Assembly: GCF_052857255.1 (NCBI RefSeq)
Contig: NC_135497.1
Location: 350,068,799-350,132,798, forward strand
Length of the DNA: 64,000 bases
Direction of reading: 5' to 3'
DNA from: Amblyomma americanum
Lineage: Eukaryota > Arthropoda > Arachnida > Ixodida > Ixodidae
Shown here: one piece after another, positions 15,792 through 55,448 of the stretch
How positions within the stretch are numbered: the first letter of the stretch is position 1
Layout: each line of letters opens with the position of its first letter
The notes under the pieces: generated by a model
Database searches by the model: none
The model's input: the letters and a program-made list of their open reading frames with translations, nothing else
What the model was told of the DNA's origin: nothing
Program-made: the position numbers and the translations under genes

Positions 15792-15889
15792 GTTAATGAA
15801 ACCTATATCTGAATTAACTTGGCCCTGGCGCTTGCGTCTCTTTCTTCCCCTATGGTTCCATTGTCCGTTTGACCTTAATTCTTCCTTCT

Positions 15890-16753
15890 CTACACTGGTT
15901 CCGTCAGAGCTCTGGGTCCCCCCAAAAAAGCTGTTGCCTGGCGACCTATCCTACTACCCACCTTCTTGCCAGTGGCACCACCGTAGTGGATGCCATCCTG
16001 TGCAAAAGGGTGGGGCCTAACCTCGTACACTTCCCTGTTGACCTCCATCACCTCGTATCTTAGTCGTCGACTCAATAGCCTAATTACCCGATTAGTCTCC
16101 ACGACCCTCCTTTCCGTTTCGCGAGCCTGCCTCTGGACCTCTGGGATTGTGCATATGGTCACATGCACACTCTCAGAGGCCTCTCTAAGCCTACGCCTCC
16201 CAACCTCCAACTGCGTCTCAAGATTCTGGCTCCTCCCCTGCAGTACATCATTGAGACCAGCATGGATGACCACAAGGTGTTCGCCATCCATGCTACCCAC
16301 CACCACCTCCCGGGCTCTGGCCATTGCATCCACCATGCACTTTCCCGACTGAGCCTCCACCTGCACCCGCCTGTCTGCCTTCACTGCCGTCAGAACGCCT
16401 CCCTCAACCCTCGCTACATTCGAGTCCCCGACCACCAGAACTCTCCTGTGCCCCAAACGTTCGCTTCCTAATTCCATCTGTTGGCCTCCGGATCGCTCTA
16501 GCTGACTCTCCTGCCGCTGTACGCTATTGTCGCGAGTTTCCATGCCCGCTTTAACCTTTTTCATTTCGTTCGCATTTTTCTCACTCAATGCTCGCTGCAC
16601 TACAGCACTGTACGATCGACGAGCCTCGTCCTCCACCTGACACTTCTCCGAACTGGGGTGCCCAGCCGGCCGCGACCTGAGCGCTTCAACCTGTTTTTCT
16701 AGCTGGGTCCGCTTTTCCCGCTCTTCTTTAATCTCGCCCACCATTCGCTTCAA
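15890..16753 (-). CDS. LINE-E ORF1 with coiled coil and SGNH-esterase-like domain
   Basis: N-terminal basic/acidic helix (KRMVGEIKEEREKRTQLEKQ). From about residue 100 there is an SGNH/GDSL hydrolase-like domain: block I RVLVVGDSNVAR (nucleophile Ser), HAGLNDVL (Asn block III), and FAQDGIHYGG near the C-terminus (D-x-x-H). ORF1 proteins with esterase domains are known from CR1/L2-type LINEs; their role may be in membrane or RNP handling and is unsettled. The frame is open for 287 codons from ATG 16753. Any N-terminal zinc finger would lie beyond the insertion boundary, so 5' truncation is possible. Confidence 0.75.
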   Translation of the reverse strand: MKRMVGEIKEEREKRTQLEKQVEALRSRPAGHPSSEKCQVEDEARRSYSAVVQRALSEKNANEMKKVKAGMETRDNSVQRQESQLERSGGQQMELGSERLGHRRVLVVGDSNVARVEGGVLTAVKADRRVQVEAQSGKCMVDAMARAREVVVGSMDGEHLVVIHAGLNDVLQGRSQNLETQLEVGRRRLREASESVHVTICTIPEVQRQARETERRVVETNRVIRLLSRRLRYEVMEVNREVYEVRPHPFAQDGIHYGGATGKKVGSRIGRQATAFLGGPRALTEPV

Positions 16754-16777
16754 CAGGGCGGCATTCGCTTCAACAGG

Positions 16778-16940
16778 GCGTCACCTGGCGCCGGTTTCGA
16801 TCTGCGTCTGCTGAGCGCAAGGTAGGAGTAAGGGTACAAAGAAGCCTGCGAGGGTAACTGGAGCGGACGGGCGCCGTTAGAAGGCGCAGAACGCAGTTTT
16901 ACCACGCTCTCCCACTCCCGCAATATTGTGATCGTGACAG
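16778..16940 (-). repeat. Tc1 right inverted repeat, outer part
   Basis: Reverse complement of 10036-10198, followed by TA at 16941-16942. Landmarks CACCTGGCGCCGG, GGTAGGAGTAAGGGTAC, CAATATTGTGATCGTGACAG. Confidence 0.88.
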
Positions 16941-18920: not shown

Positions 18921-19010
18921 GCGCCGTGACTGGGATTCGAACCCGCTGCTGTGCGAACAGATCAGCATCGCTGGCCACTGCACGAGAGCACTACACGCTA
19001 TCGCCGCAGC
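18921..19010 (-). mobile_element. tRNA-derived SINE fragment
   Basis: Minus strand: A-box-like TGGCCAGCGATG, B box GGGTTCGAATCCC (18932-18944) and an upstream GGCTGCGGCGATAGCG. A close relative, same orientation, is at 55361-55448. It has no intact anticodon arm, so a SINE head is preferred over a tRNA gene. Confidence 0.6.
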
Positions 19011-22462: not shown

Positions 22463-22602
22463 CCAAGAACAGGAACAGCGCCATGACCCAGAATACTCTG
22501 TTGTGGCGAGGGAAGTATCAGGTCAGCTTCTCTCACTCTTTGCTGTTCCTTAAGCAGCCGCCACTCCCTTCAAGGCAAGCAGCTTTTTAAGTTTCTTCTT
22601 TT

Positions 22603-23150
22603 GCACATCTTGACACAGTCACTAACGTTTCCTGCATTTTGCAGCTACAAATCCGGCATTTCATCGACCCAAGTTCCCGGGATCAGCTGTTCGCCGTAAC
22701 CGGACACGCGCCAGATCTGACACGCGCCAGATCACCGCCCTGAAGGATCGCGGACCTATCGGTAGCTCCTGCGCCTGCGCCAACTGCTGACCCGCCACCT
22801 GGATCACCGTTAAATAGCTGCAGCACATCGTACGGCACCATAGTTTGGCAGCAGTGCACATCTTGACACAGTCACTAACGTTTCCTGCACTTTGCAGCTA
22901 CAAATCCGGCATTTCATCGACCCAAGTTCCCGGGATCAGCTGTTCGCCGTAACCGGACACGCGCCAGATCTGACACGCGCCAGATCACCGCCCTGAAGGA
23001 TCGCGGACCTATCGGTAGCTCCTGCGCCTGCGCCAACTGCTGACCCGCCACCTGGATCACCGTTAAATAGCTGCAGCACGTCGTACGGCACCGTAGTTTG
23101 GCAGCAGTGCACATCTTGACACAGTCACTAACGTTTCCTGCACTTTGCAG
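22603..23150 (+). repeat. LINE-B 5' tandem monomers, 253-bp period
   Basis: GCACATCTTGACACAGTC starts at 22603, 22856 and 23109, exactly 253 apart. Two complete units differ at only about three sites; the third stops after TTTGCAG and runs into GTAAGCTGAATC. Such monomers serve as promoters in some LINEs (mouse L1 is the known case); that role here is inferred. Confidence 0.92.
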
Positions 23151-27432: not shown

Positions 27433-27831
27433 CTAGGCCCGTCGACACTCGCGTGATAACCTTAAAATCGCGCTCGACTGTACTCGACAGCGCTCACGGG
27501 CCACTTCAGAGACTTTTCCGTACAGCGCGAAGGCGACACGCACGTCCTCGTCAGGCACGTTGTAAAGCAGCCAATACAGATTCAAACGCACGTCCTGGTT
27601 TGCTGGATCAATCACCAGGCAGCGCCGTTCTTTCACACGCAGTTCACCGCCGCCGGCAATCTTCTTCACTGTTTCGGGTTCCTTGAATGTGACGGTCCAG
27701 ACATGGCTCATGCGATACGCCCCCAGAGCGATAACGTCCGGGAGCAACGAACGCTGAGCTAACGCATCCCGAAAATCTTTCTCGCGATATGGCCGGGCCA
27801 TGATATCCGCGTGCAAAAAAACTGTATCCAA
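27433..27831 (-). pseudogene. LINE-A1 ORF1, N-terminal half
   Basis: DTVFLHADIMARPYREKDFR, DVIALGAYRMSHVWTV, YWLLYNVPDEDVRVAFALYG, KVSEVARERCR: aligns with 41650-41290 of LINE-A2 (TVFLHADVAASPYRVEDFHD; VIALGAYRMSHAW; GKVSETARERW). The last codons of this open frame (from 27482 down) are MITE, not LINE. Upstream, to about 27960, the same ORF is in another frame (MTGYVGAA-like). Confidence 0.75.
27442..27480 (-). repeat. MITE right terminal inverted repeat
   Basis: Reverse complement of 22424-22462 with five mismatches; TA at 27481-27482 follows. Confidence 0.85.
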
Positions 27832-27980
27832 TACGTAAAGCCCTGTAGGCAGCCCTGATAAAACAACCTGATACGTACTTACTTGTTAAGAAGACCTGTT
27901 TCAGCGGCCAGACATGGCCGCTGTAGCTGCTCCAACGTAGCCCGTCATCACACATCCGAAAAGCTCGGAGGCCGCAAGTC

Positions 27981-28004
27981 GAATCTAGCCACTAGTCCAC
28001 GCCG
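27981..28004 (-). tRNA. tRNA-Glu-like 5' fragment at LINE-A1 5' junction
   Basis: The minus strand GGCGTGGACTAGTGGCTAG matches the start of the tRNA-Glu-like sequence at 41814-41885 (GGCGTGGTCTAGCGGCTAG), then breaks into LINE-A1 5' sequence. It is a target remnant rather than a working tRNA. Confidence 0.6.
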
Positions 28005-28081
28005 GAACGAGGCGATGCGGTACAAGCGGGTGCTTGAGAAACGTCCAAGGCAGTTTAAGTGGGAAAAAGAAAAAAAATGGC
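28005..28081 (-). other. spacer between tRNA-Gln and tRNA-Glu, with Pol III terminator
   Basis: Homologous to 41886-41968 (shared CAGTTTAAGTG, ACAAGCGGGTGC or GCAAGCGGGTGC, AACGAGG). Directly after the tRNA-Gln 3' end the sense (minus) strand has T8 and T5 runs, a Pol III terminator. Confidence 0.65.
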
Positions 28082-28153
28082 AGGTCTCACCGAGATTTGA
28101 ACTGGGATCGCTGGAATCAGAGTCCAGAGTGCTAACCATTGCACCATGAGACT
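28082..28153 (-). tRNA. tRNA-Gln (anticodon CTG), slightly degenerate
   Basis: 72 nt on the minus strand: GTCTCATGGTGCAATGGTTA, anticodon arm CTGGA-CTCTGAT-TCCAG (CTG), T loop GTTCAAATC, 3' GGTGAGACC. Acceptor GTCTCA/TGAGAC pairs. One T-stem mismatch (CCAG opposite CTCGG) and A in place of the first G suggest mild decay. T-runs follow as terminator. Its 5' end is exactly the 3' junction (A8) of LINE-A2. Confidence 0.85.
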
Positions 28154-28233
28154 TTTTTTTCTTTATTGCCCTGAGACACACAAGTAACAAATGATAAAAG
28201 CGCCTCGGCTACACTTGAGTAGGTGATGAGGAA

Positions 28234-29337
28234 TTAAAATCTTTTCAAAATAACCAAGTCATAAAACACAGAAACCCACTCTGTTGGGTCAGGCTGCACC
28301 CTGAAAGCTTCGCGTAGATAAACAGCACTCTCAATGAAGTTTTCACGTGCTGGGCGAATGTTGACATCTGCGTGTCGCACCTGCAATCGCGCTTTCCACA
28401 GACCGTGGAGGCCGAGAAGCATAATCAAATCATAGGGAACTTCCTCATTTTCGACTGGGAGGAATCGGATTCCATAAGGGTGTAAAGGAAGATCTTTTTT
28501 TAAATCGTTCTTTGGGGGACATCCCAAAGAAATATATGGTCCCAGCACTCTAAGAAAACGTGCTCGATCGTTTCAGGTTTTTTACACAACAAACAATTCG
28601 TCGTCCAAGGCACGAAGATCCCTTTATCATTCAGCCATGTTTTAACAGGGAGCGTATTGGTATGGTGTTTGAAAAAGAATATTTTAACTCCTGACCAAAC
28701 GGGCATCCTATTAACTCGCTTTAAAACATCTTGTTCAGGGCCTCCACGGCGAGGTGACCAGTAGAAAGGCACCGGCAGCGTCACATTAACCAGGTCTTTG
28801 CTCAATTTTTTCTTCGTGACATTGCATAGGTACTCTGAGGAGAAACAAACATCCAACATCTTGCACGACAGAACAATCTCGCGAAAGTAGCCAGTCACAG
28901 CACCTTTCTTGTTTTCGCATGACACTATTCTTCCAGGCAGCAGCCTCTGCAAGCGCACTTGCATAATCGTTCTTAGAAAGACATCACTTTGATCACGGAG
29001 GAAAATAAATCGCGAAACAACTTGATGCAAAACAGGTGTGCCAGACCAATCCCTCCGCTTTTGACAGTACGAAACAAATTCGTTCCGCTGGTTTTCTCCC
29101 ATGTCGATGCCCAAATAAAAACAGCAAAAACGTGTTTTTTTATGAATAGCTGTCCGCGACGCACACAATACATTCATAAGGTACCACAGCTTTGAAATGA
29201 GAAAAACATTGCAAATAGAAGCACGAGAAAACATTGATAGTTGTCTTCCTTGCCACGCATCGGCTTTCTCTTTTGCTCTGGAAGTTTCTTCTATCCAGTG
29301 CAGACTGGGATCCCGATAGCAATCTAATGGCACGCCT
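28234..29337 (-). pseudogene. LINE-A2 ORF2, C-terminal region
   Basis: LGVPLDCYRDPSLHWIEE, FSRASICNVFLISKLWYLMN, NEFVSYCQKRRDW, FIFLRDQSDVFLRTIMQVRL, then zinc-finger-like CLLCKKPETIEHVFLECW (C-x2-C-x7-H-x4-C), and in the adjacent frame (from 28548) ARENFIESAVYLREAF to the stop at 28234. Same layout as 43262-42031 (LINE-A3). The palm-to-C-terminus region with zf-RVT is typical of L1/Tx1-type ORF2. A frameshift near 28510 in a T/A run breaks it. Confidence 0.78.
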
Positions 29338-29351
29338 AGGTACCGTGTTGA
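29338..29351. repeat. LINE-D target-site duplication, left copy
   Basis: AGGTACCGTGTTGA, identical to 34697-34710 across a 5.3-kb LINE. Confidence 0.9.
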
Positions 29352-29485
29352 GTTGAGTTGAGTGGTTGTAAGCTACCGGTGGGATTAGCCTTGCAGTTGC
29401 TGCCGGAAATTGCTCCACCGTAGCGACACTTAAATAGAAATCACAGAAACACTGTCCGCAAAAACCCAAATAGACACTCCTGAGG

Positions 29486-31969
29486 TCACCATGTGGAGGC
29501 CAAATCCGTGTCCTGCAGGTAAAGAAGAAGAAGGCGAGAAGCATCCCTTCTACTCGACTGGCTCCCGCGCGGGAAAACAATGTCCTGAAGAGAACAGTGA
29601 GGAACTCCTGCCTTCTTGAGGGATCCGAATAACACAGCCCGTTCCGCGTTGTACAAAGTACAGCACAAGAGGTAATGTTCTATGTCACCACACACACCAC
29701 ACGTTGAATACAATGGTGACAACGCTAGGCCAGTCTTATACATCCACGCCGGCGTACGAGCAGAATCCGTGCGAACGCGGTGCAGCAAAGTGGCTTGGTA
29801 CCTTTTGAGACCCTTAGTCACACATGACTGATGAGGAGAGCTCCACAAAGAACTGAAGTGGCACAACACCACATCTCTGAACATTTTCTTGACTTCATGA
29901 GGGACTCCATGTACTGGAATACCGGAGAGAGCTGTATGGGCGAGGTTGTCTGCAATCTCGTTGCCTAAGACACCTATGTGCGAGGGCACCCATTGAAAGC
30001 GTATAGAGAAGCCTTTGCTATGTAGATTCTGCACCAAACGTAGGGATCTAAGACTCAAGGCATCAGTGGGGAACCCGTACTCTAACCTTTGAAGGGCAGA
30101 TTTTGAATCCGTAATTATGACAGTAGGTTGAGGCGTACAAGACCGTAGCTTCTTTAGAGCTGCCTCAATGGCAACGCTTTCGGCCATTGTGGAGGACACG
30201 ACTTTAGTAAAATGAACAGACCAATCATACTTCAAAGACGGAATATGAAAAGCAGCTGCACTAGATCCTCTGACCTTGTACACAGAGCCGTCTGTAAAAA
30301 TTTGAAGATGACTGGCATATTCGGTCTCAAGATGTTCCAGTACGAGCGAACGCATTGCCGCTAAAGGAGAATTCCGCTTAGCGCGAACGTGGGGAATTGT
30401 CAAGGAACAATCGAGGCTCGGAAAGGACCAAGGTGGCTTCAACGTCTTAGGTCGATCTCGAAGGTCGAGACCCAGAGAACGAAGAGTATTTAAAGCCAAA
30501 TACGCCCGGGACTCAGATCTCTTTCGAAGGCGCTGTAGAAGCGCTCTCCCGGCAACAGTCTCTCTGAGGCGGCCAATTTGCAGCAAAAGTCTTTGTGAAG
30601 CGGCTACCCGAAGAGGTTTCCATTGAGACTCATACAGTACTGCATTGTTTCGAGCAGCCTGCGTAACGCCGAGAGCCCTCCTTAGTCCCATTCTGTGCAA
30701 AACCTCAAGGCGTTCCAGCTGCGATACCGAGGGGGAAATTAAAGGGAGCTGGTACATAATGCGGCTTGTCGCCAGGGCATCGTGAAGCCTGATCATTGAA
30801 GCAGGATGGTTTCCCCATTGCTCACTAGCAACTCTACGAAGCACATTGAGACGCGAAGATAGTGAAGCCACAATCGAGTCCACAGCTCGTCGCCACTGTA
30901 GACGTGAGTCAATAGTGACGCCCAAAAAACGTATGGGGTTAACCTGACGAAGGCAAGACTGATCAAGGTCTATGCTCAGCAGCGCATACCGTCGTCCCCT
31001 ACCTGGAAACAGGACGAAGCCAGATTTTTCCACCGAGAGAGTCAAACCAACACCTTGAAGGTAACTTTTAACTGAAAGCACGGCCTGTCGCGCTAATAGA
31101 GCTAAGCGTTTGTGTTGATATCCGGTTAACCAAAGACAAATGTCGTCTGCATATATCGACATATGGACATGCCTACAATGTTTTTGCACTTTTGCGGGAA
31201 GACCAGCCATGACAACATTAAAGAGCGTTGGGGACAGGACACTACCCTCAGGTACCCCTCGCGATACCGCCCTTTCAGAGTTCATTGTACTGCCTAACCG
31301 CATTCGAAATTTACGATCACTGAGAAATGAGTGAATGAATCGCAGAAGATAGCCCTGTACGCCTATGACCTGCAGACTGTTCAGTATTGAGCTCTGGAGG
31401 ACGCTATCATAAGCCTGTGATACGTCTAGGAAAATAGCTAGTGTTGAAAGTCCAAAAGCACTCTGATGTTCAATGTGGCTTATCAAGTCCAGGACGCTAT
31501 CTTGCGCGCTTAAACCTGTGCGGAATCCAGTCATGCATGTTGGTAGTGCCCTTCTATCCTCAAGCCACCAAGACAAACGCTTACTTGCCATCTTCTCCAT
31601 GAGCTTAGCCACACACGACGTCAGCGATACAGGACGATACGAGGCCGCGTCTGTCATCTCTTTGCTGGCCTTCAGCAGTGGGACTACACAAGCCACCTTC
31701 CATGAAGGGGGAACGTCACCAGACTCCCACACTCGATTTAGATAGGTTAGGAGCATCTTCCGGTGTTCCAGAGGCAGGTTCTGTAACATTTGATTGGTAA
31801 TGCCGTCAGGACCTGGTGCACAGCGACGCCGCAGGCTGCGGAGCGCTGTCTGTAGTTCTCGAAGTGTGAACGGGGCGTCCATAACAGACGGAGACGTAGC
31901 AAGTAGAGCGCAGGGACGAATGCCTGGTCTGGAATTTACAAATGCATCGCAAATTCCTCTGCCAAGCAC
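29486..31969 (-). pseudogene. LINE-D ORF2: RT, RNase H and zinc finger
   Basis: 827-codon open frame. RT: RRRCAPGPDGITNQMLQNLP, ASYRPVSLTSCVAKLMEKM, LAIFLDVSQAYDSVLQSSIL, SRGVPEGSVLSPTLFNVVM, MSIYADDICLWL (YADD). RNase H: FTDGSVYK (Asp), MAESVAIEAALKK (Glu), ITDSKSAL (Asp), SHIGVLGNEIADNLAH (Asp). Last, CGVCGDIEHYLLCC. Order RT-RNase H-CCHC is that of the I clade. The N-terminal endonuclease is in the other frame, joined near 31950. Confidence 0.88.
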
Positions 31970-33105
31970 ACGAGGTGTTTCTGCGTGCGCAATGCAAGAG
32001 CCTCGAAAGGTTTACTCGGACGAGAGCCACCAGCAAGACTGCCAACGACACGCCAAATTCTCGTTATCGGTGAGAAAACAGTCAAACTAGCGCAAAAGGA
32101 TGCCCACTGGGACCTACAGAGCTTGTTCGCATGACGTCTAATGGCAGAGTTGAGCCTGTTGAAAGTTTTCTTCAAGGCTCTGTCGTCCTTCTTCCGCAAC
32201 AGTTGCTGCTCCGTCCTTCTGCGCGCTGCGCAGAGGTTCCTGAGTTTTAAATCCGGAGTCGGAAAATGATCAGGTAGCTTGAGCGCCGTGGTAGCTGCCA
32301 TCTTAGCATAAATCATTTTGTCTGTCACATCACCGGAAACACAGGCTAAGTGCTCCCTGTATTTGTCCCAATTAACAACATGGCAAATTTTAGGGCCCCG
32401 CAGATGGAAGTCGGCAGTAAACACAAATATCGGGTAGTGATCACTTCCCATTCGGTCAGCTATAGTTGACCACTGCACACGGACGTCAGGTGAATGTAAG
32501 GTTAGGTCTATAGATGTGGGTGAGGTTGGAGGCCGAAAGAAAGTGGGACTTCCGTCATTGGCCACGCACAGGTCCAAACTGTCGATGACTTCTACAAGTT
32601 GGCGTCCGCGAGGATCTGTGTTCCTGTCACCCCAGGCAGGGTGGTGGGCGTTGAAGTCACCGCAGATGATTCTGGGTGCTGGGCAGCGGTCACAAAGTTG
32701 CTGGAGAAACAAAGCCATATCGACCTTCTTCCGCGGGGACACGTATACTGATGCAATGGACAGAGTTCGGAAGGCGAGCCGAATCCTCACAGCCACTACC
32801 TCAATACTGTCGGTGCAAAGATCGGTGACGTTCAAAGCCACATGAGGAATCTCCCTTCGTATGTAAAGGGCGGCACTTCCTGTGGGAAAAGACTTGATGC
32901 TGCAATTCTTGTGGGCGACGTATCCCGGCAAAGACCTCCCGCTTGGCAAGCCAGTCTCCGAGAGGGCCAGTACTGGAACACAGTTCTCTTTCAAGAACAA
33001 TTTTAGTTCTGCTAATCGACTTATAATCCCAGCGCAGTTCCATTGCATGATAAACGGCACTTTTCTAGGGTTTTTAGTTGCAACAGGTTGAAGAAAACTA
33101 GCCAT
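31936..33105 (-). pseudogene. LINE-D ORF2: AP endonuclease
   Basis: From ATG 33105: IMQWNCAGIISRLAELKLFL (Asn), VLALSETGL (Glu), IICGDFNAHHPAWG (D-x-N), TSIDLTLHS, MGSDHYPIFV (SDH). All six motif residues are present. It ends at 31936 by a frameshift within LVCLAEEFA, where the RT frame continues as DAFVNSRPG. ORF1 stops at 33106, immediately before this ATG. Confidence 0.85.
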
Positions 33106-33801
33106 CTAGGAGTTGAAGATCTCTGCGAAGGCGGTGATCAAGGTCTCAATGGAAAGCACCAGCTGTATAAAGTTCTTCAAAGTGCCAGGCTGCATCGCTT
33201 GGCTAAATGAACGCAGGACATCAAACAAAACGCGTAGAAGGTCGGAGAGATTCCGGCTTTTGAGCTCCTTATTTTGCTGCACGCACTGGCGCACCACTTC
33301 GAAAAAAGACGGGGACTGGGACCCAATCTTGGCCACGGTAGCTGGTGTCTGCATCTCTTTTAAGGCAAGGGGATGTCCTCCATGTTGTCGAGTCTTGCTG
33401 TGATCTGGTCGCTGAGGAACATGGACACTTTTTGCAGAAGCAGATCGAACAGCCAGCTCACCCTCGGAGGCCGTTGCCGACTTGCTCGGATCAGGTCGTG
33501 AAGCGACGTCGCTTGCTACCACGTCCCGAGCTTGCGACTCGAGCGCAGAGAACTCTTCACTTCCATGTATCGGCTTCTCAGTAGGTTGTGGTTTGGGGCC
33601 ACTAATGAAGGACTTGCGACGGTGTAAGGCGCTTACACGGAATGTGCAGCCACTGAAACTCGCTGGATGGTCACCTCCACAATTAGCGCAAGCAAAATCT
33701 GCCTTGCACTTTTTGTAATCATGGCCACCACCACACCGCTTGCAACGTTGATCTTTGTTGCAAATTCTCGTTACATTCCAAAGCGTTGGCACCTGAAGCA
33801 C
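33106..33801 (-). pseudogene. LINE-D ORF1, second half with zinc knuckles
   Basis: CKRCGGGHDYKKC and CANCGGDHPASFSGC (CCHC knuckles 2 and 3), then a Ser/Pro-rich linker and a helical C-terminus (LSDLLRVLFDVLRSF, QLVLSIETLITAFAEIFNS). Knuckle 1 (CFRCQRFG) is in the upstream frame; a single indel near 33775 separates them. Gag-like RNA-binding protein. Confidence 0.8.
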
Positions 33802-34466
33802 CGGGGAGGAGTTTCAACGAACTCGTGGACTGCATGTTTGGTGAAACCGAGGTCAATTATTCCAGGGCGCTCGGTGTTGGGAGCAAACGTAAGCACAATA
33901 GAGTTTGTAGGCTTCGCTGCCCATTGTTGTTCTCCAGGCTCCACCCGGCGCATTAACCGTCGCACGTGCAGAACTCCTTGCGGTTTCAAGTAGTCAAGAA
34001 GGGCACTTTCCGAATACCACACTGGTACTCCCCTTATAACACATGTGTTAGTCATGTAGGAGTGTGGCAACCGGGCTTGAACTCGTATGCCACCGATCTG
34101 AGAGCACCGCACAAGAATGTCTACTTGCTCTTCCTTTGAGATATCTAGATGAAGAGCCCCTTGCGTTGAGAAGCGACTGCGAATCGGAGCAGATCCCAGT
34201 AGTACTTTAATATCATCGAACAGCCTGATAGGGTTCCACTCTCTGAAGTCAACTCCTTTCTCTTTTGGCTGAACTATCACTGGGATACCGACTGTCCGGT
34301 GCTTCCGATGACTCACCACTTTGAAGCCATCGTTGTCCAATTCCGCCATGTCAGCCACTTCCTCGTCAGAGGCGACGATAGTTGAGTCGTCCCCACTGAG
34401 CGATGATGATGCACTGCACTGCTGGACGTCCCTGATGACTGGCAGATCCCCGCCATGTGATGCCAT
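33771..34466 (-). pseudogene. LINE-D ORF1, first half
   Basis: From ATG 34466: acidic N-terminus, then YMTNTCVIRGVPVWYSESAL, LLDYLKPQGVLHVRRLMRRV, SIVLTFAPNTERPGIIDLGF and first knuckle CFRCQRFG. The V-x-x-V-P-x-x-x-S-E-x-x-L and knuckle succession is that of I/R1-type ORF1. Frameshift into 33801-33106 follows. Confidence 0.78.
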
Positions 34467-34696
34467 GGCCGCCTCCGCCCCACTGGGCTCCTTCGGATGG
34501 CGCGGTCCCTTTAAGGATACCGGCGCCGGAGCTGCCGTACCCTTCCCGTAGGGACAGTACCGCCTTAAAGACGCGGCCGTCTTCCAAGGATAGAAATAAC
34601 CTAGTTAATAATTAGAAAACAAGGCAAAATTACTGAGCTGAGGTGAGAACAGATCGAGCAGCGTCGTCTTCCTCTTCTTCTCCTTCTTCTTCTTCC

Positions 34697-34710
34697 AGGT
34701 ACCGTGTTGA
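34697..34710. repeat. LINE-D target-site duplication, right copy
   Basis: AGGTACCGTGTTGA, identical to 29338-29351. Confidence 0.9.
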
Positions 34711-34734
34711 CAAGGTGGACCATCGCAGCCTACA

Positions 34735-35134
34735 GAACATGCCTTGAAAAAAATGTATCAGCCTGCACTAAACAACTGGCTAGCCTACAAAAACAATTGT
34801 GATGCCTAGAGATAAGAATAGATGACTATAAAATCGATCTAGAAGATCTAACCTCATCGTGTATGGTATGCCAGAAGACGAAGAAGAAAACTCCGAATCC
34901 CTAGAACAGGCAGTGACGAAAAGGTCATTAAGGATACTTTAAAGTTAGATGCGGTCTCAATCGAACGGATCCATCGACTACGCAAACCGGAGGTAAACAA
35001 AACAAGGCCAATAATTTTAAAGCTCTGAGATTTCCGAGAGAAAACAATAATTTCGCGAAGCTGTCACAAACTGAAGGGGAGCGAATACGTCATCAGCGAA
35101 GATTATTCACCCCCTATTCCAGACATTAGGCGGA
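34735..35134 (+). pseudogene. LINE-C ORF1 remnant
   Basis: Broken frames read CTKQLASLQKQL, DDYKIDLEDL, IVYGMPEDEEENSESLEQAV, LDAVSIERIHRLRKPE, KTRPIILKL, DFREKTIISRSCHKLKGSEY, VISEDYSPPIPDIRRRL. These are the RRM-like and C-terminal blocks of CR1-type ORF1 proteins. At least three frame changes are present. Confidence 0.65.
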
Positions 35135-35192
35135 GATTGCCGTTAGATTGCTATCGGGATCCCAGTTTGCACAGGATAGAAGAAACCAGGAC
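35135..35192 (+). mobile_element. LINE-A scrap between LINE-C ORF1 and ORF2
   Basis: GATTGCTATCGGGATCCCAG and GGATAGAAGAAAC match the minus-strand LINE-A2 at 29285-29333 with a few substitutions, but in plus orientation. Confidence 0.65.
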
Positions 35193-35227
35193 CCCGATAC
35201 GCGCAACCTGCGTCCACGCCGCCCCCA

Positions 35228-36197
35228 GTGTCCAAAATAATCATCGTAAATGTTAACGCACGAATTATAATTAACAAGCTTGATCCCCTCGAATCGATAA
35301 TAATAAATTTGGAGCCAGAATTCATCGCCATAACAGAAACGTGGTTAACCAAAGACGTCAAAGACTTTGAAATAACTCCCCCAAACTATGTCATTATTCG
35401 CAAACATCGGGCAACACGAGGCGCAGGCGTTGTTCTGTTGATAAAAAAAAATACCGTTCATTACCTCGCCGGACGTTGAAGGAGTTGAATCAGTTTTTTG
35501 TAAACTTTGCCTTGTAGATACTACCATTACTGTGGGATGCATCTATCGCTGTCCTTCTTCCGATCTGATTACAATGCAATCTTTGTACGCGTATATGCAG
35601 CAGCTTGTGAAGGAAAACAAGGTGATATTACTAGGCGACATCAATCTACCTGACATTAACTGGCACACACTACATCATCGATCACCTTGCGCCGATGTTC
35701 TTTTTGATATCAAGCTTTCTTTCGATCTAACCCAGATAATAAACGAGCCTACGCGGGTACATGGATCTAGCTCGAACATTTTAGACCTAGTATTTCTTAG
35801 TAATCATTTGCCTATCCATGAGGCAAAATCCGAAGTGTCAGCCGGACTGTCAGACCACAAATTGGTCTATTGTGCTGGCCCATATAATGGTTCTCTACCT
35901 TCTTCACGATCAACAATAATGTATAAAGATTACAGCAGAGCCGTTGATACAGGCATCATGGATACACTATCACTCGAACTCTCATCCTTCCATCAACTTG
36001 CACACGATGCAAACACCAACATCGAATCCCTAAGGCATAAATATAAAACAGTTGTGTCATACTGTGTCACTAACTACGTACCATTGAAAACTAAAAGGAC
36101 AAACAAACATAACCCCTGGATAACTCGAACCGTAATCCACGCAAAAAGAAATGTTCGACGACTCAGAAAGGGACAGAAAGACCATCCGTCACAGTGA
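35228..36197 (+). pseudogene. LINE-C ORF2, endonuclease part
   Basis: IIIVNVNARIIINKLDPL (Asn block), FIAITETWLTKDV (Glu), RGAGVVLLIKK; frame break near 35477; then TVGCIYRCPSSDL, VILLGDINLPDINW (D-x-N), SSNILDLVFLS, GLSDHKLVYC (SDH), NPWITRTVIHAKRNVRRLRK. Ends at a TGA at 36195. Confidence 0.78.
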
Positions 36198-36299
36198 ACA
36201 GTTCTAAAACTCATTTCCGCTGTTGATGATTTGAAATCAAAAATGAAGAGGGCCAAGACATTATTTTACACAAACACTTCCTAAATTTCTAAAAAAATC

Positions 36300-37168
36300 T
36301 CCCCAAAATCTTTTACTAAATCTGGACACTAAGAAAGCACCAGGGCCTGATAACATCTCTAACATATTCCTACATAGATATGCCGAGTGGATAGCTAAAA
36401 TCCTGGTAATACATTTCAACAAATCATTATCCACTTGTACCCTCCCTAGGGATTGCAAAACCGCCAAGATAACACCGATACACAAATCAGGAAATAAATC
36501 CGACCCTTTGAACTTGGAGACCTATATCACTAACGAGCACAGTATGCAAATTATTAGAACATATTCTTTTAGAACAAATAAACGCTTATCTTCAAGTATA
36601 TGACAATTTAACCCCGTGTCAACACGGCTTTCGTAAGGGTCTTTCTACTATTACTCAACTAATCGAATTAACACATGACATAAACACAAGCATTGATAAC
36701 CAGAAAAAAATTGACCTTATATTTTGAGACTTCACGAAAGCATTTGAAGGTGTGTCGCATACTAAACTTATTGCAAAACTTCAACTTATTTTAGGAATTG
36801 GCCCTATTCTAAACTGGATTAAAGACTATCTTAGTAATCGCATGCAATTTGTTAAAATTAACGATGAGAAATCAGCGACAACTAAAGTTACATCGGGAGT
36901 ACCCCAAGGAAGTGTCCTAGCACCAGTACTATACCTAATATTTATAAATGACCTACCTGCTTGTGTTTCACAGAATATTATACTTTTCGCAGATGACTGC
37001 GTCCTTTACAAGGAAATTTACTCTTTTGATGATCATATAGTTTTAAATAACGCCTTAACACCAATGTACCGTTGGTGTCAGGACTGGCAGATGGACATCA
37101 ATTTAAATAAATCTGTTCTTTTATCTATAACTAGAAAAAAAACACGTCAGCTTTTCAATACACGCTGA
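36300..37168 (+). pseudogene. LINE-C ORF2, reverse transcriptase
   Basis: LDTKKAPGPDNISNIFLHRY, DCKTAKITPIHKSGNKSDP, several stops around 36580-36730, then KLIAKLQLILGIGPILNWIK, TSGVPQGSVLAPVLYLIFIN, IILFADDCVLYK (FADD). CR1-type RT, fingers heavily damaged. Confidence 0.75.
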
Positions 37169-37721
37169 ATAATATTCATCTTGCATCTGTCCTTGAGCAT
37201 AAGTACCTTGGTGTGACACTAACCTCTGTTTTCAGATGCTATTCATTAATATCATCACATCTAATGCAATAAAACAAGTCTTCATCATTAACAGACGCCT
37301 TAAACAAGCACCCTCTGAAACAAAATTACTAGCATATAAAACTATTGTCAGACCAATTCTAGAATACGGCAACACCGTTTGGTTTCCCTTTACTAACAAG
37401 CTCATTAAAAAACTTGAAGGGGCGCAGAGAAAGGCACTAAGATGTGTATATAATAAACACTCCCTTACAGACTCACCAACACAATTACTAAAACGTGCAG
37501 AACTCCAAACCTCGGAGAACAGAGCAAAATTTCCAAGACTTAAAATTATGTATCAGCTAATACACAACCAACTAAAAGTGCCCGCTACAAAATACATAAC
37601 GACCACAAAAACTAGATCGAACCGCCACAACCTGACACACAATTTAAACGACTTTCCATTCCGTACTGACATATTCAAATACTCATTTCACCTCGAGCTA
37701 CACGAAAATGGAACAATCTAA
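37169..37721 (+). pseudogene. LINE-C ORF2, C-terminal part
   Basis: IINRRLKQAPSETKLLAYKT, RPILEYGNTVWFPFTNKLIK, GAQRKALRCVYNKHSLTDSP, LKIMYQLIHNQLKVPATKYI, then FRTDIFKYSFHLELHENGTI and a stop. Same blocks as the CR1-like fragment at 19915-20655, which shows that the two belong to related families. Confidence 0.78.
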
Positions 37722-38089
37722 ACATAGATATTACCAACAGCTCCTCATTAGATGCGTTCAGTGCTCTGGTTATAGATCACCTGCTTGTTTCCCAGTAGTT
37801 ATTCTCATTTCCACACTTTTCTGCCCTGTTTATTTTTGCCGTTTTGTTTGTGCCTAGATTGAAAATACAATAACTGTAGCCGACTTCCTTTTTTGGTATG
37901 CATGTCATCATGTTTTCCGCCTATTATTTGTACCTCACCCTGAATTCTCTAAACGATATTGTAACTATTTTTGCCACATGTTATTGTTCAAATTGTTTAC
38001 CTACCAACATGTGCACTACAACTGTATCATTCAGAGCCCTTCCTGTTACAGTCCCTGATGGAACTTACAGTATCAAATAAAAAAAGAAT

Positions 38090-39474
38090 AATTCTGCTGC
38101 AGCGTCCCATTCACCGTGCCAGAACCCTGAGCTCTTTTTCCAATTTATCTTACATCCTGTTTGATTACAGAATTTTCGCATGGCACTAATCACTTCGCAG
38201 ATGCTCTCCCTATTTGAGCAAAACACTGCTATATCATCAGCATACGCCAGCATTTTAATATGTACTGACTGCAGCTTGTAACCCGTCATGTGGTCGTTGT
38301 TTATGATCGATAAGCAAAGTGGTTCCAAATAAATTGCAAAAAGCAGGGGTGAAAGCGGGAAGCCCTGCCTAACCGATGAGCGTACAGCGTTGGTATCAGT
38401 GAGATCTCCATTAACTATAATTCTGGTCTTGCAGTTTCTGTAAGCCATTTTAACACCCTCCACAATCACACAACCAAGGTTACAGTGACCGTGGAAAGCA
38501 AAAAGAATTTCATGGGAAACCCGGTCAAAGGCCTTGTCAAGTCTAACTGCATCATAGCTATCTAACCATCAGCCACGTCAACACATTCTAATATTGTTCT
38601 TGCAAGATGCGTATTTGTGGCGATGCTGCGACATTTGATGCCACATGTGTGGCGAGGCCCAACCATTTTGGTGATTACGGTCTGCATTCTTTTTGCTAAA
38701 ATCATCATGTACACTTTATAGTCCACGTAGGTGAGATCAATCGGTCGATATGACCCAACCAATATTCGTTTCTCTGGGTCATCAGTCTTGGGGATTAAAA
38801 CTATGTGGGAGGTAGAGAAGGCCATCGGAACTTTTTTTTCGTTCATAGGCTTCCGTAACCACATGGAGCAAAAACTGGGCCACATGTTGTTTGAACGTTT
38901 GAAAGAAAACAGCATTTAGTCCGTCCAGCCCAGGTGCTTTCCCAGATGGTAGGTCCTCAATTGCGTTTTCTATCTCTTGCAAAGAATTAGGCAATTCTAG
39001 ACGCGCTTTTGTTTCGTCATCTAGTCTTTTCACCAGATTTCAAAAACACCACTGAAAGCCGTCTACAGTCTCAAGCTTAATGCTAAGCAGCTGTTTGAAG
39101 TGGTCTTCTACAGCGCGTTGAATTTCATTGGCATCCTCGGCGATGCAGCGTTCATATCTGATGCTTCGAATTTCATTCTAACAAGCGTATCTTTTTTCGT
39201 CTGATAGAGCTCTCTTTGTCGGCGCTTCAACGGCCCACAATTTTTCAGACCTTGACCGTATAACGACCACTCTGTACCTGACGGTATCTATTCTTTCTAG
39301 CTGACTTTTCAAGTTCTGTATTTCTGTAGCAAAGTATTCCGGCTCAATACTTTCCATGCTCAGTAAACACTCAAGTTGTGCATTCAGTTCTCTTTCTTTT
39401 TCTTTCCCTCTGTAACGAATCACAGTACTTTTTTCTATTCCTTTATCTTCACCCATTTTTTGAAGCCATCCCAT
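38090..39474 (-). pseudogene. LINE-A2 ORF2, linker and reverse transcriptase
   Basis: Linker GWLQKMGEDKGIEKSTVI, VVVIRSRSEKLWAVEAPTKR. RT in several frames: DLPSGKAPGLDGLNAVFFQT, SHIVLIPKTDDPEKR, SYRPIDLTYVDYKVYMMILA, GPRHTCGIKCRSIATN, RQGFPLSPLLFAIYLEPL, KMLAYADDIAVFC (YADD). It ends at GEWDAAAE where LINE-C sequence starts. At least four frame breaks. L1/Tx1-type RT. Confidence 0.82.
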
Positions 39475-40344
39475 TCTGCTGCAAAACTGGTTGGGTACGC
39501 AGCAAGCGGCTTTTTAATCTCGGTTGTAACTTTCCAAAGAAGCTCCTCATCGTCAAGAATTTTTGCGTTCATTTTCCATAGATGCCACTTGAAGCTAGAC
39601 TTTTTTTTCTTCATCCCAAAAGTCGCACTCACTAGGCAGTGGTCACTGAAAGACACACATTTCACAGTGTATGCAGAGCAGAGGGGCACATGATCGACTG
39701 CTACGTATATCCTGTCGAGTCTAGCGTGACTATCCCGCTGAAAGTGCGTGAATTCTGGCTGGTTTCCCGTGGAGAACACGCTGTCAACATCCTCAAGACC
39801 GTAATCATGCACTAATGTCTTCAGTAGTTTGGAGCTTTTGTCTCTTAGCGATCTGAGTTTCACTATGTCGACAGCTGTGCACACTCAGTTGTTGTCACCG
39901 AGTAAAAGCAAAATCTTGTCGCTCTGCAACCATGGCTCAAGAGCCTCAAAAAACAATTGACGCTCGCTTTCTAAATTAGGTGCATACAATTAGGTGCATA
40001 CATACACGAAAACATAAATTCGAGAAAGTGAAATTAGTTACCAAAAGACGACCGCTTTCACAGGCGAACATTGACTCGACGCTTATTCGTAACGAATTAC
40101 GAATAAGTAGCAAGCATCCACCCGATGCACCAACGGAATGACATACACACAAATCAATGTATTTTTGAAACGAAGACACCATGCGTTCGTATGCTCTTGA
40201 GTCTATCTTTGACTCTTGCAAAGCTACTATATCTATATTGTTATCCAAAAGGAGCCGATTAAGCTGGCATTGTCGCCTTCTAGCTCCTAGCCCTCTGACA
40301 TTCAAAGTAGCTATGCGAAGTGGTGTCTTTAGCTTATGCGCCAT
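39435..40344 (-). pseudogene. LINE-A2 ORF2, AP endonuclease
   Basis: From ATG 40344: LRIATLNVRGLGARRRQCQL (Asn), IVALQESKIDS (Glu), ASGGCLLLIRN; break near 39976 (a short direct repeat of AATTAGGTGCATAC is visible at 39974-39999); then FTHFQRDSHARLDRIYVAVD and VSFSDHCLVSATFGMKKKKS (SDH). The D-x-N block is degraded near 39890-39900 (stop TGA before NNC). Confidence 0.8.
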
Positions 40345-40824
40345 GCGTTAAAAGCGCCACCAGTAGACGTACTTTCCCACCTTCGCAGTCACGTAGCCTT
40401 CCACGTTTGAAAATCCGGAGCGCACACATCCTCCCAGCGAACCGCAGGGATACATTCGCAAAGCATGTCCAGCCACTGCAACCCATTTCGCGCACATTCC
40501 CAGCTTGGATGTTAAGGCCGCTTGACGTTAGTCAGCTGAAAACCGACACACAGATCTTCCAGAGCACCACACAACTACGCAGGCGGTTTCCGCGCCTGCT
40601 GTGTTTCAGCCTATAAATTCGGCCGCGGTTTTAACATTGAAAGTCTTAACCCAGGTGTTTTCGGCGGCGGCTCATCGCTGCCATCGCCAGACAGCTGCTT
40701 TTACCCACGCTCTCTTTATGTGGGCGTTTCCCAGCCATTGAGGCCGCCGTTTACTGGCTGACGTCCATGGCGTCAGTCCTCGGAGACTCTCCGCCTTCAG
40801 GTGTTTCGACGCAAATTTCGTCGT

Positions 40825-41790
40825 TTATTTCTGTGAATCATGATCGTCTTCGGAGGAAGCATCAACGACTTTCTCACCAGCCTTATCATCGCTAGCTGCC
40901 GTAACTTTCTGCTTCGTTAGAATCGTCAAGGAAGGCGCATCCTGTTTCACTTTCAGCCCTGCAGAACCAGCTGGTTCCTCCGCATCCGTCTCATCCATTA
41001 GAAGCTGAGATGAGTCCTCACTTGTCCCTGGTCCAGCAATACTCGCGTAACTGAGTGCACACTGGCCATCATCGTGGCCGAACCGTCGACAAACTCCACA
41101 ACGTGGAACGCGGCACTCTTTACGGATGTGGCCGGTACGCCGACAGCGGAAGCACAAGGGAGCCCGGCCAGGAACGACGACAAGAGTCAACTCACGGCGA
41201 CGTTCAGCTGGTATAGCAGGTCGTCGAGTTTCACGCCGGCTTTCATCTTTAGGGTGACCAACCGTGTCGTTGAGCCCTTTCCTGTCATGTCATGTGCCCG
41301 CCAGCGCTCCCGGGCAGTTTCCGAAACCTTTCCATACGGTGCGAAGGCTGCTCGCACCTCTTCGTCGGGCACACTGTGTAGAAGCCAGTGCGACTTCAGG
41401 CACACGTCCTGATTCGCCAGGCAGCGACGCTTTTTTCACAAGTAGCTCGCCGATGCCTGTAATCCGCTTTACCGCCTCGGCATTCCGTAAAGTGATGGCC
41501 CAGGCGTGACTCATGCGATACGCCCCCAGGGCTATAACGTCCGGTATCAGCGAATGTTCCGCCAACGCGTCGTGGAAATCTTCCACACGGTACGGACTGG
41601 CCGCGACATCAGCATGCAAAAAAACTGTATTTAAAACGAAACGCCCTGTAGGCAAGCCTGGTAGAACAACCTGGTATTCACTTTCCCTTTCCGCAGTCCT
41701 GTTAGTGCGGCCAGACATGGCCGCCGAAGCCGCTCCTACGGAGCCCGTCATTATACGTCCGTTCACAGGCGTGGCCGGAAGCTGAAGCAT
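40825..41790 (-). pseudogene. LINE-A2 ORF1, Gag-like protein with two CCHC knuckles
   Basis: N-half from about ATG 41751: MTGSVGAASAAMSGR, TVFLHADVAASPYRVEDFHD, DVIALGAYRMSHAW. Middle in a second frame (41405-41187): SHWLLHSVPDEEVRAAFAPY, KGSTTRLVTLKMKAGVKLDD. C-half in a third frame (41190-40825): CFRCRRTGHIRKEC and CGVCRRFGHDDGQC, then an acidic tail to 40825. Two frameshifts. This paralogue lacks the MITE found in LINE-A1. Confidence 0.8.
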
Positions 41791-41808
41791 CCATTACACC
41801 ATGAGACC
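41791..41808 (-). repeat. 18-nt tRNA-Gln 5' segment flanking LINE-A2 (target duplication)
   Basis: The minus strand GGTCTCATGGTGTAATGG equals nucleotides 1-18 of tRNA-Gln and is followed directly by LINE-A2. The other copy is the start of the tRNA-Gln at 28153-28136 (16 of 18 identical). Confidence 0.85.
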
Positions 41809-41813
41809 GCATC

Positions 41814-41885
41814 TGCCGTCGCCAGGAATCGAACCCGGACCTTTTAAGTGAAAGCCAGGTATCCTAGCCGCTAGACCACGCCGGA
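41814..41885 (-). tRNA. tRNA-Glu-like (anticodon TTC), degenerate
   Basis: Minus strand: GGTCTAGCGGCTAGGATACC (A box and D arm), anticodon loop CTTTCAC (TTC), B box GGGTTCGATTCC, ending CGACGGCA. The D arm and T arm fit tRNA-Glu, but the anticodon stem is poorly paired on the 3' side (TTAAAAGG) and the acceptor stem does not pair well. It is likely a pseudogene or the remains of a cluster unit. Confidence 0.55.
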
Positions 41886-41968
41886 ACGAGGGGAAGCGGT
41901 GCAAGCGGGTGCACAAGAAATGTCCAGGGCAGTTTAAGTGAGAAAAAGAAAAAGAAGTACAAAAGCGC
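41886..41968 (-). other. spacer between tRNA-Gln and tRNA-Glu-like, second copy
   Basis: Homologous to 28005-28081. Sense strand after the tRNA-Gln has TTTT and T5 runs suitable as Pol III terminators. Confidence 0.6.
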
Positions 41969-42040
41969 AGGTCTCATCGACATTTGAACTCAGATCGCTG
42001 GATTTAGAGTCCAAAGTGCTAACCATTACATCATGCGACC
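41969..42040 (-). tRNA. tRNA-Gln-like, anticodon position CTA
   Basis: 72-nt relative of the tRNA-Gln at 28082 (ATGATGTAATGGTTAGCAC, T loop GTTCAAATG). The loop CTCTAAA puts CTA where tRNA-Gln has CTG. Other changes (GTCGCATG in the acceptor, GTCGATGAG in the T stem) point to a pseudogene. LINE-A3's A-rich 3' end abuts its 5' base. Confidence 0.65.
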
Positions 42041-42650
42041 TCTTTTCTTTTTATTGCCGAGCTTCGACAGAGTATACAAAAAAAAAATTTACATGATACA
42101 TCTTCCAGTGGGAATCTGACACTCAACCAGCCGCTGCTGCTGGCTTGGTCATGTTGAAAGTCCCTCAGGGACACCAAGGGCTCTACCCTCGAGAGCCATT
42201 CAGGAATTTGATCGGCCGTTTTTTGTATTTCAATAAACGAGTGCACACTCTCACGAAAGTAAATTCGGGCACGCCTCGCATCCGGTTCACAGTAGTGTTG
42301 AGCCATTCGCGAGCGCCAAATAGCGTGGAGACCCAAAACCAGTATTGTGTCATAATTGGCACGCCCTCTTGGTTTTGTAGAGGGAGATAACGTATTCTAT
42401 ATGTGTCTACAAGGAAGTCTTTCTTGAGCGTTCTTTGCAAGACATCGCAGTAGTAGACTCCTTCCCAGCAGTGCAAGAATACATGATTGATTGTCTCTGG
42501 CTCCTTGCAAATCGAACAATCTGAGCCCCAAGGCAGAAAAATTCTCTTTTTCTCTATAGATGCTTTCACGGCCAGTTTTTCTATCTGTAACCTAAAAAAG
42601 GAAGATTTAGCGGCCGGCGGTACCTGAATTTTCTTCACCCTCTTCAACAC
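42031..42650 (-). pseudogene. LINE-A3 ORF2, zinc-finger C-terminus
   Basis: CSICKEPETINHVFLHCW (C-x2-C-x7-H-x4-C), LKKDFLVDTYRIRYLPLQNQ, then in an overlapping frame ARRARIYFRESVHSFIEIQK, IPEWLSRVEPLVSLRDF. The DYFR/RDF end matches 28234-28548 and the plus-strand piece at 9517-9712. Confidence 0.78.
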
Positions 42651-44120
42651 ATTACCGCCCTAGCCTCCACGGTACATGGCCCTCTACAATGGTTCAGGCA
42701 GAACAACATCACGTAAATCCCGGGAGTGTGTTCTTTTTACAGTAGAGAGGTACTGCAGCGAAAAACGAGCAGCCAAAAATATAACACTCATTACCACTTC
42801 TCTGCTGTATCCAAAAATCCGACCTTGAATGTTACCTGTTCTCGCAATCGATTCTGGTAACGCACGGCCCAGCCTTACTTGCCAGATTGTACGCAAGAAG
42901 GGATCACTCACGGCACGAAAAAATAAAAACCTTCTCATGACTTGGCGCAAGAACAGATGGCGCAGGTCTAGGCCTCCATCTATTACACTTCTAAACAAAT
43001 TTCTGCCTCTGCATTGTTCCCAGGTCGAGGCCCAGACAAACAATGAAAAAATGCGCTGCAGTTTCTGCACGTTGGTTCGTGAACAGTGCAGTACCTGCAT
43101 CACGTAACACAGCTTGCTGATGAATAAGTTGCACACTGTAGCCCTCGCGAAAGTCGATAACTGAGTCCCTCTCCATCTGTCAGCTTTTGCAGGTGTGTCT
43201 TCCAACTGACTTTTCCAACACGGTTCTCTGTCTTGATAACACTCCAGTGGGACCCCTAACACTTGATCGAAGTCGTCACCAAGGACTCATTCTCAAAGTT
43301 AACGGGAGTCGCTGGCCATTCACCATACCAGAAGCAAACATATTTTTCAAAATATACTCGTCTTCCTGTCGATTGGCTAAATTGCCGAACACAATCGATG
43401 GCCTTTTTTATGCTCTCACCAACCACGAAAACGGCTACGTCGACCACATTAGCCAGCAACTTATTTTCTGTCGCTTGTAACCTAAAACTATGAATACCGT
43501 CAATCTGTATTGTGCTCAAAAACAGGGCTTGTATGTATACACCAAACAAAAGAGGGCGGAGGGAGCAGCCCTGGCACACCAAGCTCTTATTTATTATTAT
43601 TCTAGTTGCGCAATTGCAGTACGACATGGCCACTCTCTTCATGATGGCCAATCAAACATTCACCTGATCCAAAATTAAATCAAAAGTTCATGTGCCACGC
43701 AGTCAAATGCCTTTTCCACGTCTAACTGAAGAATAGCTACACGACTGCTTGTAATATTAAAACACTCAAGCACGCATCTTGCTTGGTGAATATTAGACAT
43801 AATAGAACGGCCTTTGATGCCACATGTGTGATGAGCACCTACTATCATATTCATTACCCTTTGTTACCTCCTTGCTAAGACCTTCATAAATAATTTGTAG
43901 TCCACGTTAGTGAATGAAATAGGCCTGCTATGACACCTCCCCATTCAAACTTGTCAACCCGATTGCGCTCAGCCCGGGTTTTTTCCGAGACCAAGGCTCG
44001 TTTTGTTGCTTCTTCACCGAAAACCGACTCTTCAGCTTCCGCAAGCACCAGCGCACCACGATAACGCTCTTCTTCCATAACTTCTATCTTTTGTTTAATT
44101 TTCTTCACGTCATCAACCAC
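42041..44120 (-). mobile_element. LINE-A3, 5'-truncated Tx1-like LINE ending at tRNA-Gln
   Basis: Minus-strand pieces: linker 44120-43930 (EERYRGALVLAEAEESVFG, EEATKRALVSEK), a jump to RT from about 43930 (PISFTNVDYKLFMKVLAR, GAHHTCGIKGRSIMSN, AILQLDVEKAFDCV), palm 43651-43256, C-terminal region 43262-42684, zinc-finger region 42650-42183 and last frame 42336-42031. 3' end GGCAATAAAAAGAAAAGAG at the tRNA junction. An internal deletion removed the RT fingers. 5' break at about 44120. Confidence 0.78.
42684..43651 (-). pseudogene. LINE-A3 ORF2, RT palm end and thumb
   Basis: 43651-43256: CQGCSLRPLLFGVYIQALFL, then KLLANVVDVAVFVV where the paralogue has MLAYADDIAVFC, so the YADD catalytic box is mutated (ANVVD) and the copy is inactive. 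43262-42684: LGVPLECYQDREPCWKSQLE, LFVWASTWEQCRGRNLFRSV, DGGLDLRHLFLRQVMRRFLF, RDLRDVVLPEPL. Confidence 0.78.
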
Positions 44121-55360: not shown

Positions 55361-55448
55361 ATTGCCGCCACTGGGATTCAAGCCCTTGGCTGCGCGAACT
55401 TATCCGCCTCGCTGGCCACTGCACGAGAGCGCTATGCTATCGCCGCAG
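55361..55448 (-). mobile_element. tRNA-derived SINE fragment
   Basis: Minus strand CTGCGGCGATAGCATAGCGC, TCTCGTGCAGTGGCCAGCG, GGGCTTGAATCCCAGTGGCG; same family and orientation as 18921-19010. Confidence 0.6.

Follow-up and report, generated by a model that had tools for sequence, protein, structure and literature searches.

Here, we describe LINE-A, a family of long interspersed nuclear elements (LINEs) represented by LINE-A1, LINE-A2 and LINE-A3 in a 64-kb stretch of the 2.56-Gb genome of Amblyomma americanum (C1:350068799-350132798; hereafter 'the window'). We judge it probable, at roughly 85%, that LINE-A inserts in sense orientation, and at a single, almost invariant position, into transfer RNA (tRNA) genes of many types, each such insertion rebuilding the gene.

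At the gathering threshold, Rfam detects just three tRNAs across the window, all on the minus strand (28153-28082, 42040-41969, and 41885-41814). Read along that strand, the upstream part of the locus consists of the LINE-A3 3′ end, tRNA-Gln (42040-41969), a spacer, tRNA-Glu (41885-41814), six bases, nucleotides (nt) 1-18 of a tRNA-Gln, and LINE-A2; the downstream part consists of LINE-A2, tRNA-Gln (28153-28082), a spacer, nt 1-22 of a tRNA-Glu (28006-27985), and LINE-A1. The features are listed below with their basis, P0122 being a homologue of the second open reading frame (ORF2) product and L075 and L076 being other LINE-A copies.

41969-42040, minus strand: tRNA-Gln directly 3′ of the LINE-A3 end (Rfam RF00005, 36.4 bits)
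41814-41885, minus strand: tRNA-Glu in a Gln-Glu tandem unit (Rfam, 33 bits; Glu identity by eye)
41790-41807, minus strand: tRNA-Gln nt 1-18, GGTCTCATGGTGTAATGG, the 5′ target duplication of LINE-A2 (sequence; 16/17 match to the 3′ copy)
28082-28153, minus strand: regenerated tRNA-Gln (CTG) at the LINE-A2 3′ end (ARAGORN; Rfam, 52 bits)
27985-28006, minus strand: first 22 nt of tRNA-Glu, the 5′ flank of LINE-A1 (sequence)
42041-43926, minus strand: LINE-A3, of a divergent subfamily, from the ORF2 reverse transcriptase (RT) to the C-terminus, with an A-rich 3′ end adjoining tRNA-Gln (tblastn with P0122; sequence)
38085-41789, minus strand: LINE-A2 segment 1, with 5′ end, ORF1 region, and ORF2 endonuclease and RT (collinear with the uninterrupted copy L076, 89%)
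34697-34737, minus strand: LINE-A2 segment 2 (alignment to L076)
28154-29349, minus strand: LINE-A2 segment 3, with the ORF2 C-terminus including a zinc-binding domain, the 3′ untranslated region, and poly(A) (zf-RVT, 2.2e-06; P0122 residues 761-1119)
27479-27984, minus strand: LINE-A1 5′ part, resuming at 22424-19514 past a later insertion (73% identity to the LINE-A2 5′ end)
34738-38084, strand not assigned: nested insertion 1 in LINE-A2, with a plus-strand LINE RT at 36286-37114 (missing from L076, found in L075; RT match)
29350-34696, minus strand: nested insertion 2 in LINE-A2, an unrelated RNase-H LINE outside LINE-A (Pfam RVT_1 and RNase_H; 12-nt duplication AACACGGTACCT)

The tRNA junctions that a preliminary description had placed in the window are borne out. 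The LINE-A2 poly(A) stops at 28154, directly ahead of the downstream tRNA-Gln, whose first 17-18 nt form the 3′ target duplication; at the other end, the 18-nt Gln piece (41807-41790), closed by the A box TGGTGTAATGG, directly precedes the element. The reported agreement of these Gln flanks at 16 of 18 nt holds, and becomes 16 of 17 when nt 1, an A in place of G in the window tRNA-Gln copy, is left out. LINE-A3, which P0122 residues 531-1111 match at 43926-42237 (tblastn, 39-60% identity), stops at 42041 beside its tRNA-Gln. LINE-A1 starts at about 27984, immediately after the tRNA-Glu piece, and is matched by P0122 at 21461-19514; its 3′ end, sought beside a tRNA-Glu at about 9.3 kb, was not found, the sole trace being a C-terminal remnant resembling LINE-A at about 9560-9290.

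Copies elsewhere in the genome were collected with the element ends as queries and without use of their flanks (flank-blind), yielding 65 distinct 3′ ends from two subfamilies: thirty-one of LINE-A2 type (window LINE-A2 included) and thirty-four of LINE-A3 type. Most copies examined do have tRNA flanks, and not the non-tRNA surroundings that the preliminary description had named as the outcome opposed to its proposal: 44 of these 3′ ends have a junction tRNA recognised by ARAGORN or Rfam, the remaining 21 being near-copies of a called one (4), tRNA by eye (7), tRNA-derived or degenerate (6), or without any (4). Elements lie in sense orientation to the tRNA gene, and the 3′ poly(A) end meets nt 1-2 of the mature tRNA in most copies examined; in L057 it lies at about nt 5 and in L059 at about nt 10.

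The LINE-A2 subfamily search returned 44 matches and 31 distinct 3′ ends (three further elements, L033, L082, and L083, show no 3′ end in the sequence covered); the copies are 80-96% identical. ARAGORN finds a tRNA at 17 of the 31 junctions, namely Gln, Asn, Ser, Thr, Met (initiator by eye), Leu, Val, and one Gln-derived copy labelled His. Four further program calls, from Rfam at L017, L032 (elongator Met by eye), and L078 (Thr by eye) and from both programs for Arg at L080/L096, raise the total to 21/31, or 24/31 once calls by eye are included (L019, Asn; L031, Gln; L038, Met-like). L021-L023 and L027 are tRNA-like, and three of the 31 (L028, L034, and L035) have no tRNA at the 3′ junction.

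For the LINE-A3 subfamily (45 matches), 36 flanks were taken by coordinate, 34 of them with a 3′ end and two without (L130 and the partly masked L132). ARAGORN finds a tRNA at 19 of these 34 junctions, including nine decayed Gln copies that carry the label Pyl because their anticodon reads CTA; Rfam, to which 17 of the 34 were submitted, adds L101, L105, L106, and L115, giving 23/34 by program. L107-L110, outside the Rfam set, are near-copies of L106 (Glu by eye, anticodon TTC). Inspection by eye adds L097 (Leu, partial), L114 (Tyr with an intron), and L116 and L119 (Gln); it also likens L105 to Ile and L098, labelled Gln, to Pro. L100 and L104 are apparently tRNA-derived, and L112 is not clearly a tRNA. 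By eye, L104 and L092, both at LINE-A junctions, have a tRNA-derived look resembling that of short interspersed nuclear elements (SINEs).

Ten tRNA types are thus represented by ARAGORN label (Gln, Asn, Ser, Thr, Met, Leu, Val, Arg, Pro, and Ile), decayed Gln copies labelled His or Pyl not being counted. By eye, Glu is a further target type (in the window and at L106), and Met splits into initiator and elongator. The proposal that LINE-A targets tRNA-Gln and tRNA-Glu genes therefore stands as to tRNA genes, but not as to a restriction to those two. More divergent members occupy the same site in Asn (L041) and Gln (L001 and L002, the last two retrieved by tRNA pattern and hence a biased sample).

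A preference of this kind could also arise if insertion were broad and selection had spared the copies beside tRNA genes alone, given that multicopy targets are tolerated and a genome displays survivors exclusively. We consider this very improbable, since the junction falls at nt 1-2 across tRNA types and since another LINE persists elsewhere in the same genome. The latter, used as a control, is the RNase-H LINE nested in LINE-A2 (29350-34696), which occurs in at least 40 places (the window copy at 100% and the other 39 listed at 98% identity); among eight 3′ flanks sampled from these at least 40 copies, a tRNA was found in 0/8 by ARAGORN and 0/8 by Rfam. This LINE is young, with a 12-nt target duplication and terminal ACTCAACTCAACTC repeats.

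The 5′ side was sampled by a flank-blind search that returned 41 matches, representing 40 distinct 5′ regions. By eye, twenty-six end in what is clearly the 5′ part of a tRNA (Gln, Ser, Asn, Thr, initiator Met, or Leu), nine are tRNA-like, and five (L048, L052, L063, L071, and L088) show no tRNA piece, the element's own 5′ end being incomplete in L063, L071, and L088. The tRNA sequence ahead of a LINE-A 5′ end breaks off at about nt 13-22, and a loose A-box pattern occurs near 28 of the 40 junctions, compared with 1991/20,000 and 1835/20,000 random positions. The 12 misses include L067, L069, and L072-L074, whose script-set anchors lay too deep and which are Leu-like by eye, as well as L049, whose flank nevertheless repeats a tRNA-Ser start. 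Because the 5′ end served as bait, this search is uninformative on the frequency of 5′-truncated copies.

Both ends were compared at eight loci, one per paralogue group. Seven carry their own duplication of 13-18 nt, the 5′ flank scoring best with its own 3′ flank; the earlier interpretation of the 18-nt repeat in the window as a target duplication is supported. The same comparison bears on whether the LINE carries tRNA-derived sequence at its own ends, as both Gln-like junctions of LINE-A2 in the window might suggest and as the preliminary description had itself considered. We regard that explanation as practically eliminated: within a single subfamily the element adjoins Gln, Asn, Ser, Thr, and Met tRNAs, and this variation, together with the own-partner matches at seven of the eight loci, indicates that the tRNA sequence is external to the LINE.

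A rebuilt tRNA can stay intact, as exemplified by the Asn copy at L016 (67.3 bits in Rfam; its neighbour scores 67.2), which agrees with the earlier prediction that a full tRNA is regenerated downstream. At L016 and L024, and by eye also at L079, L081, and L085, another tRNA of the same type lies downstream in its own spacer. Such neighbours, and 5′ flanks in which other upstream DNA is joined to no more of the tRNA than nt 1 to about 18, make it highly unlikely that the junctions are chimeric reverse transcripts, in which template switching joins a tRNA to the LINE at a site with no pre-existing gene, even though LINE-1/RNA chimaeras are reported (PMC13174262).

Insertions are also found stacked. 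At L070, 15 nt of tRNA-like sequence separate the poly(A) end of one LINE from the 5′ end of the next; at L019, nt 1 to about 21 of a tRNA-Asn are followed by the C-terminus of a second LINE, whose poly(A) joins the remainder of a tRNA-Asn. Both arrangements fit repeated use of a rebuilt target.

Several observations weigh against precise insertion into tRNA genes, or reduce the weight of the counts in its favour. The L070/L028 flanks lack a matching duplication, and one of the seven duplication loci (C5:69.7M, two copies) is a perfect 18-nt duplication in sequence without a tRNA match. L021 and L022 have no Rfam match, and three copies at C2:82M (paralogues) and a few others sit in sequence that is tRNA-like. 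Rfam at the gathering threshold scored only 9 of 20 junction loci in one set, and missed L081 (Leu), L085 (Val), L102 (Pro), and L111 (Ile), all of which ARAGORN calls. Finally, segmental duplication accounts for many of the C1 Gln copies (L039 and L010 share 93-96% identity with the window locus), and independent events are therefore far fewer than 65. The C5 copies (C5:69.71M and 69.79M; L034/L048 and L035/L052) constitute the clearest off-target LINE-A site.

We suggest that the ORF2 endonuclease would first nick the antisense strand at the point where the mature tRNA begins, because the LINE 3′ end, at tRNA nt 1-2, marks the site of complementary DNA (cDNA) priming, and that the 3′-OH at this nick would prime reverse transcription from the poly(A) tail. 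The sense strand would be cut next, at a point 13-18 nt downstream and close to the end of the A box/D arm; the duplication stops at or near the end of the A box. Fill-in would then duplicate tRNA nt 1 to about 18, leaving a near-complete tRNA gene behind the element and re-creating the target site, which would permit stacked insertions. The order of the two cuts is inferred from these junctions. The D-arm cleavage site of the preliminary description would accordingly apply to the second cut but not to the cDNA-priming cut, which we place at the mature 5′ end.

How the site is recognised is a separate question. We put at even odds that the LINE's own proteins recognise A-box DNA common to tRNA genes, the reading we prefer because the position is nearly fixed and because tRNA-derived repeats are apparently hit too. 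Guidance of the same precise insertion by host RNA polymerase III (Pol III) factors bound to the gene (TFIIIB/TFIIIC), as proposed for Dictyostelium TRE5-A, is a serious possibility, although one we would not bet on. It suits tRNA genes of many sequences, including the intron-containing Tyr-like target L114 (by eye), and TRE5 ORF1 interacts with TFIIIB (PMC5911963). However, the same source places TRE5 40-54 bp upstream of its targets, whereas LINE-A occupies a nearly fixed position in the gene, its duplication spans the A box, where TFIIIC would sit, and one non-tRNA target bears a perfect duplication. Returning to A-box recognition, we lean slightly towards the broader proposal that this tick LINE lineage targets tRNA genes as a class via the A box, each insertion rebuilding a working tRNA gene, such that the target would never be exhausted and head-to-tail stacking upstream would be possible.

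LINE-A2 is one 4.9-kb element (41789-38085, 34737-34697, and 29349-28154) that two nested foreign insertions have extended to a span of 13.6 kb. It is taken to be a single split element because it is collinear with L076 (C7, about 4.9 kb), which has no large interruption and aligns to window positions 41786-38085, 34737-34697, and 29349-28152; the first nested insertion shows a short overlap at its junction with LINE-A2. The RNase-H LINE at 34604-29486 was rejected as the body of LINE-A2, L076 showing it to be nested. Likewise rejected, as the body of LINE-A1, was the LINE at 16780-12604, whose RT is only 25-30% like P0122, compared with 52-68% for LINE-A2. This second LINE (12604-16780, minus strand), which lies outside LINE-A, has one ORF for endonuclease and RT and, upstream of it, another weakly like GDSL lipase/esterase, below the Pfam cut-off, a resemblance shared by CR1-type ORF1.

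The LINE-A layout comprises ORF1 with a CCHC zinc knuckle (CGVCRRLGHEDGQC in L076, CLRCRRTGHIRKEC in L075) and ORF2 with an apurinic/apyrimidinic endonuclease (APE)-type endonuclease, RT, and C-terminal zinc-binding domain. L076 is decayed through frameshifts, and its ORF1 gave no Pfam match. Its read-through ORF2 gave 91 protein matches, the best mostly of 1,130-1,140 amino acids; relatives are 35-66% identical and include the Ixodes scapularis proteins P0190 and P0214 (56% identity to P0122). P0122 carries Exo_endo_phos (4.2e-13), RVT_1 (7.8e-36), and zf-RVT in Pfam, and matches LINE-A2 in pieces at 52-68% identity (residues 1-751 on segment 1, at 40344-38086). A domain search for RNase_H in P0122 found none, the RNase H at 29486-32011 belonging to the nested LINE; absence of this domain is typical of animal L1/Tx1 members. 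In a tree of 33 ORF2s, which contained no named Tx1 sequence, ten LINE-A relatives form one clade (100/100), P0214 being the sole named tick protein among them.

The closest solved structure to P0122 is human L1 ORF2p (1e-72 over endonuclease and RT). Together, the APE endonuclease with an L1-related RT, lack of RNase H, poly(A), target duplications, and ORF1 CCHC knuckle characterise LINE-A, by sequence, as an APE-type LINE at the level of the L1/Tx1 group; the earlier label 'Tx1-like' is sound to that level. ORF2 relatives sought in prokaryote genome contigs and viral contigs were not confirmed there. One relative, P0200, comes from a record labelled as an Anaplasma assembly and possibly represents contaminating tick DNA.

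To our knowledge, known site-specific animal LINEs are each confined to one RNA gene or repeat. Dewa, a zebrafish LINE of the Tx1 clade, resembles LINE-A in having a tRNA-linked target. That target is described as the tRNA-Leu spacer (PMC3706591), whereas LINE-A lies inside the tRNA gene (nt 1 to about 18), uses many types, and rebuilds the gene. The L1-type TRE5, TRE3, and NLTR elements of social amoebae likewise choose tRNA genes, but TRE5 sits upstream, at 40-54 bp, and TRE3 downstream, at 40-150 bp (PMC5911963), tens of bases outside the gene, in contrast to LINE-A junctions at one position inside it. Dada elements insert within tRNA genes as LINE-A does, several at A-box nt 8-13 and some using more than one tRNA type (PMC8869645); they are DDE DNA transposons with short duplications, whereas LINE-A has RT, an APE endonuclease, poly(A), and 13-18-nt duplications. 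Keno (U2) and Mutsu (5S) are LINEs that share insertion into multicopy RNA genes, with one RNA gene described for each (PMC3706591, PMC4640811), whereas LINE-A uses tRNA genes of many types. An earlier report of a LINE entering many tRNA-gene types at a fixed base was not found in the open-licence literature.

If correct, entry into many tRNA-gene types at a nearly fixed base, followed by their restoration, would represent a novel way for an element to coexist with its host, in contrast to the amoebal tRNA-seeking LINEs that land beside the gene. LINE-A would additionally offer a clean system for asking what directs an APE endonuclease, A-box DNA or Pol III factors, and a naturally occurring case of insertion driven by reverse transcription at many scattered sites with the gene preserved at each.

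The tRNA-Gln 18-mer has 128 exact copies genome-wide, and a spacing of 224-225 bp on C1 is common among the 100 listed. Tandem tRNA-Gln arrays with mostly this spacing lie at C1:222589389-222594766 and C1:227656519-227673959. Within the window, a 253-bp unit is present in two head-to-tail copies, 99% identical, at 22602-23107 (plus strand), and the sequences at 18923-19009 and 55364-55448 are, by eye, apparently tRNA-derived and SINE-like.

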